Below, piece after piece: positions 34,924-36,545 of a stretch of 43,592 nt of DNA. The position numbers were made by a program, and so were the translations under genes. This DNA comes from Ignavibacterium sp. (GTDB lineage: Bacteria; Zixibacteria; MSB-5A5; GN15; PGXB01): assembly GCA_020724775.1 (NCBI GenBank), contig DYGG01000027.1:1-43592 (forward strand). Direction: 5' to 3'. The first letter of the stretch is position 1. Each line of letters starts with the position of its first letter. The notes under the pieces are model-generated. The model had not been told where the DNA came from. It saw nothing but the letters and a program-made list of their open reading frames with translations, and did no database searches.

Positions 34924-35625
34924 ATGAGAAATCTGCCTGTTCTTTTTCTGTTACTGATTGGCGTGATACCGTCTGTCCGTGGGGAGGCATCTCTTGTAGT
35001 CAGGGACAGCCTGACCAATTTCGGATATCTGCCCACCAAATCAACGGCGACGCGAAGTACGATTTTTTATTCGGTGGGTACGGATACTCTTGTGATTAAT
35101 GATATAAACACCACCTGTGACTGTATAAAACTCGCTCTTGACAGACGGCGAATCGCGCCGGGAGATAGTCTCGAAGTTGAAGTGATTTATGATTCGGAAT
35201 TAAATGTCGGCATTAAAGACCGCTACCCCTATATCTATACCAATGCACGAAAAGAGCCCTATCGGATTGCAGTCAAGACAATAACTGCGGCTGATATGTA
35301 CAGCATTAAGCCAATTACGGTAAAGCCGTTCCGGGTGCTGGCGTCGGACCCCAAAGACCACTATAACCTCCGCTTCAGATTTGAAATGATTAACACGGGG
35401 ACGGCTCCTGTGCCGCTGACACTACTCTATAATGACAGCGAATTCTTCGCCGTGAGACTTCCCGACGAGATTCCGGCAGGCGCTACCGTCACCGGGGAGG
35501 TAGTGCTGACGCCCGAGGGCGTTAGGCAGGAATTTGCCAAATCCTTTACCTTTGAGTATCATGAGAATTCCGGGCAAAAAGTGAGTCATACTGTGCCTGT
35601 TTTGCGTAGAATCTATAAAAAGTGA
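34924..35625 (+). CDS. exported DUF1573 protein with CxC motif
   Basis: 233 residues with a signal peptide (MRNLPVLFLLLIGVIPSVRG). Residues about 22-118 form the DUF1573 beta-sandwich domain: the NFGYLP start, then TDTLVINDINTTCDCIKLAL holding C65-D66-C67, then APGDSLEVEV. A second Ig-like domain spans about 125-230. The CxC corresponds to the first and third positions of the usual DUF1573 CGC motif. It is a full-length paralogue of the next gene, where the first Cys is replaced by a TGA codon. The protein likely acts in the periplasm or outer envelope. The biochemical function of DUF1573 is not established; a CxC pair suggests a redox or metal-binding site. The ribosome-binding site is weak. 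Confidence 0.85.
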   Translation: MRNLPVLFLLLIGVIPSVRGEASLVVRDSLTNFGYLPTKSTATRSTIFYSVGTDTLVINDINTTCDCIKLALDRRRIAPGDSLEVEVIYDSELNVGIKDRYPYIYTNARKEPYRIAVKTITAADMYSIKPITVKPFRVLASDPKDHYNLRFRFEMINTGTAPVPLTLLYNDSEFFAVRLPDEIPAGATVTGEVVLTPEGVRQEFAKSFTFEYHENSGQKVSHTVPVLRRIYKK

Positions 35626-35695: not shown

Positions 35696-35736
35696 ATTGG
35701 CAAGAGCGACTTCGCAGTGAGTCATCTGGAGGTAGT

Positions 35737-36495
35737 ATGCTTAAAATGAAAATAGCCACCATCATTGCAATTATACTTTTCGGCGCGGCCGGGATTGCTG
35801 ATGCTCAGCCGAAGATGTCGATTCCCAATTCGATTTTTGATTTCGGTTTTGTGCCTCAGAATTCCAAGATAAGCCATATCTTCTGGCTTCACTCGACCGG
35901 CACCGATACGTTGAAAATCCTTAAAGTCACCCCCGGCTGAGGATGCACACAGGCTCCGCTTTCAAAACAGGAGCTTGCTGTCGGTGACAGCACACAACTT
36001 GAGATTGTATTCTCGACCGGACATTATACCAAACGCCAGTCGAAGAGACCGACCATAAGCACCAATGAAGGTCCGGAACTTAAGAGCGTTCAGATTTTGT
36101 GCGACGTTGTGATTAACCCTGATTCAACGTACCCTATAATCATCAAGCCGTACAAGTTCGATATCTCCCAGTTCGGCGAAAAAGAGCGCAGTTCCATGGA
36201 CTTTACCATTCAGAACGTCTCAGACCTCGACCTGGAACTCGCCCTGATTGATATGCCGGCAAATATGTTCAAGGTAACATTGCCCAAGAAGATTAAAGCG
36301 GGCGAAACTGCCAAAGGAAAGTTTGCCCTTCAGAAAGAGTATATTCCGAAAGAATTTGAGAAGTCGGTTACCATCGAACTTAACGATAATGCCAAGACCA
36401 GATTCACGGTGCCAGTCAAACGAACCATACGGATTCCGGGGGCGCCGCAGACATCGACAGCGACACCGGGGAAACCGGCCCGACAGGGACATTAA
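35737..36495 (+). CDS. putative selenoprotein: exported DUF1573 protein with in-frame TGA (Sec68) in a UxC motif
   Basis: One 252-residue protein read through a single in-frame TGA at 35938-35940 (codon 68). Before it: signal peptide MLKMKIATIIAIILFGAAGIADA and the DUF1573 start IFDFGFVPQNSKISHIFW. After it, in the same frame: GCTQAPLSKQELAVGDS, then a second Ig-like domain (about 130-230) and a TAA at 36493-36495. DUF1573 proteins carry a conserved CGCT here, and the upstream paralogue aligns without gaps: TDTLVINDINTTCDC against TDTLKILKVTPG-U-GC. TGA thus takes the place of Cys, giving Sec68-Gly-Cys70. A stem-loop fitting a bacterial SECIS follows. TGA is a normal stop elsewhere in the window and Trp is TGG. 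Alternatives: a point mutation of TGC, or a sequencing error. Ordinary gene calling would give fragments 35737-35940 and 36097-36495. Confidence 0.78.
35941..35992 (+). promoter_or_regulatory. candidate bacterial SECIS element downstream of the TGA
   Basis: Stem AGGCTCC (35951-35957) with GGAGCTT (35970-35976): seven pairs, one of them G-U, closing a 12-base loop that begins with G (35958). The loop starts 17 bases after the TGA, within the window expected for SelB-bound bacterial SECIS hairpins, which need a G at the start of the apical loop. A second, perfect 7-bp hairpin TGCTGTC-GGT-GACAGCA (35976-35992) abuts it, but its loop is 42 bases from the TGA, which is rather far. Both are within coding sequence. 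No folding software was run. Confidence 0.62.
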
Positions 36496-36515: not shown

Positions 36516-36545
36516 AAACCCGGATTCAAAGAAATCCGGGTTTTC
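36516..36545. terminator. bidirectional Rho-independent terminator
   Basis: 11-bp stem AAACCCGGATT (36516-36526) with AATCCGGGTTT (36533-36543) and a six-base loop, followed by TTTTC on the plus strand and a T-rich run on the minus strand. It lies between the convergent stops of the selenoprotein candidate (36495) and the second GWxTD gene (36571). An intact terminator here supports the view that 36495 is the genuine 3' end of a living gene. Confidence 0.85.

Follow-up and report, generated by a model that had tools for sequence, protein, structure and literature searches.

A predicted DUF1573 selenoprotein of Zixiibacteriota with a candidate two-hairpin element downstream of its UGA codon

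The window, i.e. the whole stretch of 43,592 nucleotides of DNA that was analysed, contains a gene for a DUF1573 protein in which one in-frame UGA is, judging from sequence comparison across the phylum, near certain to code for selenocysteine (Sec). The full explanation that we propose, namely an exported two-domain DUF1573 protein of PapD/HYDIN-like Ig fold carrying a Sec68-Gly-Cys70 motif, whose UGA is followed by a spacer hairpin (hairpin 1) and then by a hairpin serving as the SelB site (hairpin 2), is in our judgement very probable. The further proposal that such elements form a distinct bacterial SECIS class, with a looped-out spacer hairpin inserted from about +15 that holds the SelB-binding hairpin at the usual effective distance, stands at even chances.

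The frame runs from the ATG at 35737 to a TAA at 36493-36495 with the TGA as its sole interruption (Table 1). The codon lies in the context TPG-U-GCTQAPL, where U68 takes the place of the first Cys in the CGCT motif of DUF1573, and the protein matches PF07610 with 82.5 bits (E 2.2e-23), above the Pfam gathering cut-off of 26.1. A tandem paralogue upstream has C65-D-C67 at the site equivalent to U68-G-C70. Elsewhere in the window TGA is an ordinary stop that ends 8 of the 29 long ORFs, the paralogue included. A sequence-only reading of this DNA had proposed a single TGA-interrupted frame preceded by GGAGG, a TGA in place of the first Cys of CGCT, a Cys at the same position of the paralogue and a terminator after the gene; all four were recovered when the sequence was read again, the second being backed by the PF07610 match and by TGA at the same codon of the homologues. 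Standard annotation would break the gene into two fragments.

Table 1. Features of the Sec-DUF1573 locus (positions in the window; RNA coordinates in brackets).
Feature	Position	Strand	Basis or detail
Upstream tandem DUF1573 paralogue with Cys	34924..35625	+	ORF; PF07610 E 1.8e-18
GGAGG ribosome-binding site	35728..35732	+	sequence; 4 nt 5' of ATG 35737
Sec-DUF1573 gene	35737..36495	+	252 residues, one Sec, TAA stop
Probable signal peptide, residues 1-23 (ending in GIADA, followed by QP)	35737..35805	+	sequence inspection; model helix 2-20
UGA, near certainly decoded as Sec68	35938..35940	+	same codon in 76 distinct homologues
Cys70, partner residue of the U-G-C motif	35944..35946	+	invariant in alignments A1 and A2
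Hairpin 1, stem GCUCC/GGAGC	35953..35974 (+15 to +36)	+	covariation at 17-34 and 20-31
Hairpin 2, GCUGUC-GGU-GACAGC, 6-bp stem and GGU triloop; proposed SelB-binding hairpin	35977..35991 (+39 to +53)	+	invariant silent sites
Terminator-like hairpin AAACCCGGAT...ATCCGGGTTT, 3' of the gene	about 36516..36543	+	sequence inspection

A protein search found a homologue in 131 of 132 genomes of the phylum, which we take to be known interchangeably as Candidatus Zixiibacteriota, candidate division Zixibacteria and GN15, on the strength of named loci of relatives. Within the taxonomic order to which the window belongs, most of the best matches had exactly one TGA inside the match, and protein conservation extended well past it. 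Nearly every close homologue in the phylum retains the TGA, a recurrence that chance falls far short of explaining. The codon at the Sec68 site, taken from the fetched loci, was TGA in 79 of 179 aligned rows (76 distinct TGA copies), TGC in 61, TGT in 35 (96 rows with TGC or TGT together) and TCC in 2, with 2 rows uncovered; a search for homologues with Cys or TGA at this codon had been suggested by the sequence-only reading. In three genomes two or three Sec-DUF1573 elements lie in tandem within ~2 kb (G096:C100:15740-17648, G095:C35 and G097:C194), each with its own TGA and hairpin. A few TGC copies retain the RNA hairpin, e.g. L032 (G028:C3) and one of the two G086 copies (G086:C50:18239-18922); in these, Sec was apparently replaced by Cys not long ago and the SECIS persists as a fossil.

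The genome that holds the window (3.07 Mb, 96% complete) contains a tRNA-Sec with UCA anticodon, neighbouring selB and selA genes on contig C75, and a selD with an in-frame TGA of its own, so that every sel component that had been proposed as a check on the source genome was found. Only matches over curated cut-offs were relied on for the machinery, because controls with the family models give low-scoring matches in many genomes; selA exceeded its cut-off in 116 of the 132 genomes. G127 and G069 have the Sec-DUF1573 element and selD, and no selA was found in their assemblies, probably owing to assembly gaps. Second selD copies without TGA (L176-L193, e.g. G011:C30 and G038:C13) lie in open frames of ~550-900 codons and are apparently fusions with another domain. 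The presence of the Sec machinery in the genome together with the retention of TGA in homologues makes Sec insertion very likely. Two findings that had been named as counting against it, a genome lacking the machinery and decay of the gene in relatives, were looked for and neither was found.

The downstream hairpin that the sequence-only reading named as a requirement of Sec is present and could be refined into two parts, hairpin 2 starting 2 nt after hairpin 1 (coordinates below count the T of TGA as 0). Hairpin 2 is invariant in nearly all of the 76 Sec copies (GCTGTC GGN GACAGY, with C at +39 in one copy) and is lacking in almost every Cys paralogue. All of the 76 Sec copies have T, C and C at its silent third positions +41, +44 and +50, which show no parsimony change on the tree, compared with a median of 26 changes for other third positions; the silent loop base at +47 does vary, and a second Ala codon 24 bases upstream, which serves as a built-in control, takes all four third bases. 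Pair 43-49 forms in 100% of Sec copies but in 4% of Cys copies, because the Cys paralogues mostly encode Pro (Ala-Pro-Gly-Asp-Ser) where the Sec copies encode Val (Ala-Val-Gly-Asp-Ser); this Pro-to-Val change would be a clean case of an RNA signal dictating protein sequence. Hairpin 2 has no covariation of its own in the Sec copies, owing to its near-total invariance. The exact pattern TGAGGNTGY-N30-GCTGTCNNNGACAG was found on contigs of 94/132 genomes of the phylum and its reversed control in none of the 132; the pattern is phylum-specific and the result applies to Zixiibacteriota. Elsewhere in the window's genome the GCTGTCNNNGACAGC hairpin turned up once, in a heavy-metal-binding-type gene without a preceding in-frame TGA, and was rejected as a general Sec signal of this genome.

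The evidence for hairpin 1 is covariation. Pair 17-34, which joins the silent base of an Ala codon to the second base of a later codon, ranks first in covariation among 12,710 position pairs between -60 and +195, and a standard pair (U-A, A-U, G-U, G-C or U-G) forms there in 91% of Sec copies vs 40% of Cys copies. Of 10,005 helices of 6 bp examined, 64 were well paired, and the six that ranked highest among these all correspond to registers of hairpin 1. The covariation of hairpin 1 in 71 sequences was 0.119, compared with 0.045 after shuffling (reached in 0 of 500 shuffles) and at most 0.059 in slid controls. Co-changes on the tree numbered 10 at pair 20-31 (3.5 expected) and 4 at pair 17-34 (about 2.3 expected), and 24% of the hairpin-1 cells are unpaired. 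RNAalifold predicted hairpin 2 and, in place of hairpin 1, a different near-invariant pairing (G3G4-C18C19 with G7C8-G15C16) in whose almost invariant columns no compensation was seen. Initial folds of the segments 35930-36000 and 35938-35985 had weak z-scores (about -0.9 to -1.0) and showed no defined structure; folding of single sequences was indecisive, and the case for the element came from comparison. The minimum-energy fold of the window's 57 nt consists of exactly the two adjacent hairpins (-18.2 kcal/mol), and with folding begun at +13, to mimic a ribosome sitting on the bases before it, hairpin 2 formed in 74/76 copies and both hairpins in 62/76. No Rfam family matched at the region. 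The sequences show that the element is selected independently of the protein. Beyond the two stems, the second Cys codon ends in C at position 35946 (+8 after the UGA) in 73/76 Sec copies (TGC), whereas C and T are present at 46:44 in the Cys copies; the base seems to serve the RNA in a way that neither hairpin explains.

A comparison with selD of the same phylum gave a possible meaning to the two-part arrangement. There a stem with a G(U/G) triloop lies at +23 in 35/70, at +36 in 20/70 and at +20 in 8/70 cases (loci showing these three positional types include L212, L213, L229 and L247-L258), which places the triloop 17-20 nt from the UGA, or 33 nt where it stands behind an inserted 13-nt hairpin. 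In the +36 group the triloop hairpin is fully paired at six pairs, several of them compensated, and the inserted hairpin at +15 to +27 is mostly paired. In DUF1573 the loop of hairpin 2 is at +45, 42 nt from the UGA. Subtracting the inserted bases yields the same value in both genes (36 - 13 = 45 - 22 = 23), a striking agreement, though one noted post hoc for two genes whose hairpin boundaries could shift by one or two bases. From this match we infer that hairpin 1 serves as a spacer that is looped out, with hairpin 2 as the site bound by SelB. While the UGA occupies the ribosomal A site, hairpin 1 would fold out of the way, hairpin 2 would then be ~20 effective nt from the UGA, and SelB carrying Sec-tRNA could bind its GGU loop. 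If true, one spacer rule would serve two unrelated genes of the phylum, selD with a 13-nt and DUF1573 with a 22-nt insert, and might account for some of the bacterial SECIS elements missed by current models.

The probable signal peptide points to the cell envelope as the location of the protein. Its AlphaFold2 model (pLDDT 92.9) has two beta-sandwich domains, with U68 and C70 in the loop after strand 59-65. The fold of the first domain matched HYDIN, VesB and the uncharacterised Porphyromonas protein 2qsv (Z 14.3 over 101 residues, 1.7 A), and that of the second, more weakly, PapD-type chaperone domains; a sequence search found no homologue of solved structure. On the predicted model, the resemblance to HYDIN, SPD-2, VesB and pilus chaperones is that of a common Ig/PapD-like fold and implies no function. 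In the cell envelope Sec68 and Cys70 might work as a redox pair joined by a selenenyl sulfide, a role suggested by analogy, or else bind a soft metal, and the tandem Cys-type DUF1573 protein is a possible partner.

Several other explanations were weighed. A pseudogene or a sequencing error could in principle place a stop codon within a gene that has intact Cys paralogues, yet the same TGA recurs across the phylum and the protein is conserved after it; its presence at the same codon in a genome of the same genus (L071) argues against an error in particular, and we give this explanation practically no credence. That the UGA is read as another amino acid, or acts as a regulatory stop yielding a short exported peptide, is slightly more conceivable since UGA read-through is known in general, but it is highly improbable given the complete Sec machinery of the window's genome, the exchange of TGA with Cys codons among homologues (two TCC rows excepted) and the near confinement of the RNA element to Sec copies. 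The earlier proposal, in which an exported DUF1573 protein carries Sec as part of a U-G-C motif, held up on the Sec machinery, the phylum-wide TGA and the RNA element specific to Sec copies.

The two remaining alternatives leave Sec in place and concern what it does and how it is inserted. Sec68 and Cys70 could bind a soft metal or metalloid instead of carrying out redox chemistry: a published list places Sec also in metal-transport and mercury-related families, the Ig fold is of a binding type and no redox enzyme was among the top fold matches. According to reviews, selenoproteins whose function is known are mostly redox proteins, and we regard metal binding as a possibility, though a minority one. 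Somewhat less likely still is an arrangement in which hairpin 1 is an ordinary SelB-bound bacterial SECIS and hairpin 2 is accessory, e.g. in slowing the ribosome. The loop of hairpin 1, ~21 nt from the UGA, falls inside the published range of 16-37 nt, the hairpin covaries, and G occupies +24, in the apical loop region, in 54/76 copies. However, the loop has no conserved G or GU (the window's loop region is GCUUUCAAAACA, or UCAA if two inner U-A pairs form), the sequence invariance that marks a protein-binding site sits in hairpin 2, and the 6-bp stem and GGU triloop of hairpin 2 match the selD hairpins of the same phylum. We therefore prefer hairpin 2 as the SelB site and hairpin 1 as the spacer.

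DUF1573 is not a new selenoprotein family, and the novelty implied by the sequence-only reading did not survive: DUF1573 with a UGC motif is listed as a predicted selenoprotein family in two reviews, and the first credits it to the study of the Olavius algarvensis deltaproteobacterial symbiont (Zhang & Gladyshev, 2007). The window protein shares its Pfam domain and Sec-Gly-Cys motif with the OS_HP2 family (NCBIfam NF041425, PF07610), which was described from the Olavius symbiont, whereas the window belongs to a different phylum. Against NF041425 (OS_HP2_seleno) it scored 76 bits (E 2.3e-21), below the curated cut-off of 100, which makes it a divergent OS_HP2 relative. What appears to be new is the two-hairpin RNA element and the phylum-wide use of Sec-DUF1573 in Zixiibacteriota: our literature search found no account of tandem hairpins, and the only match for selenoproteins and Zixibacteria appears to concern deltaproteobacteria. 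The element would thus represent a phylum-wide candidate SECIS class of precise geometry with strong sequence support, and a little-known phylum would be making wide use of selenocysteine in an exported protein.

The bSECIS consensus describes an apical loop of 3-9 nt with G in its first two positions, an upper stem of 4-16 bp, 16-37 nt between the UGA and the apical loop and a minimum free energy no higher than -7.5 kcal/mol; according to reviews, a share of bacterial SECIS elements misfits the single-hairpin model and distinct classes may exist. Like other bacterial SECIS elements, the window element is a stem-loop structure just 3' of the Sec-UGA in the coding region with a small apical loop starting with G, but it consists of two adjacent hairpins. 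Hairpin 2 agrees with the consensus in loop and stem (GGU, 6 bp) and departs from it in spacing (42 nt), whereas hairpin 1 lies within the 16-37 nt range and has no conserved loop G; relative to the threshold of -7.5 kcal/mol, the 57-nt element is well below and hairpin 2 alone, at -6.8, slightly above. In the E. coli SECIS, where U17, G23 and U24 are the characteristic bases (U of UGA = 1), the bases contacting SelB include G23 and, in the same loop, U24. Elements of this fdhF type have a bulged U in the upper stem and a GU loop, while hairpin 2 is a perfect 6-bp stem without a bulge and with the loop GGU. The selD SECIS of Zixiibacteriota resembles hairpin 2 in its G(U/G) triloop, on a stem of 6-8 bp, and differs from the DUF1573 element in loop position (+20, +23 or +36 vs +45) and in the length of the insert (13 nt vs 22 nt).
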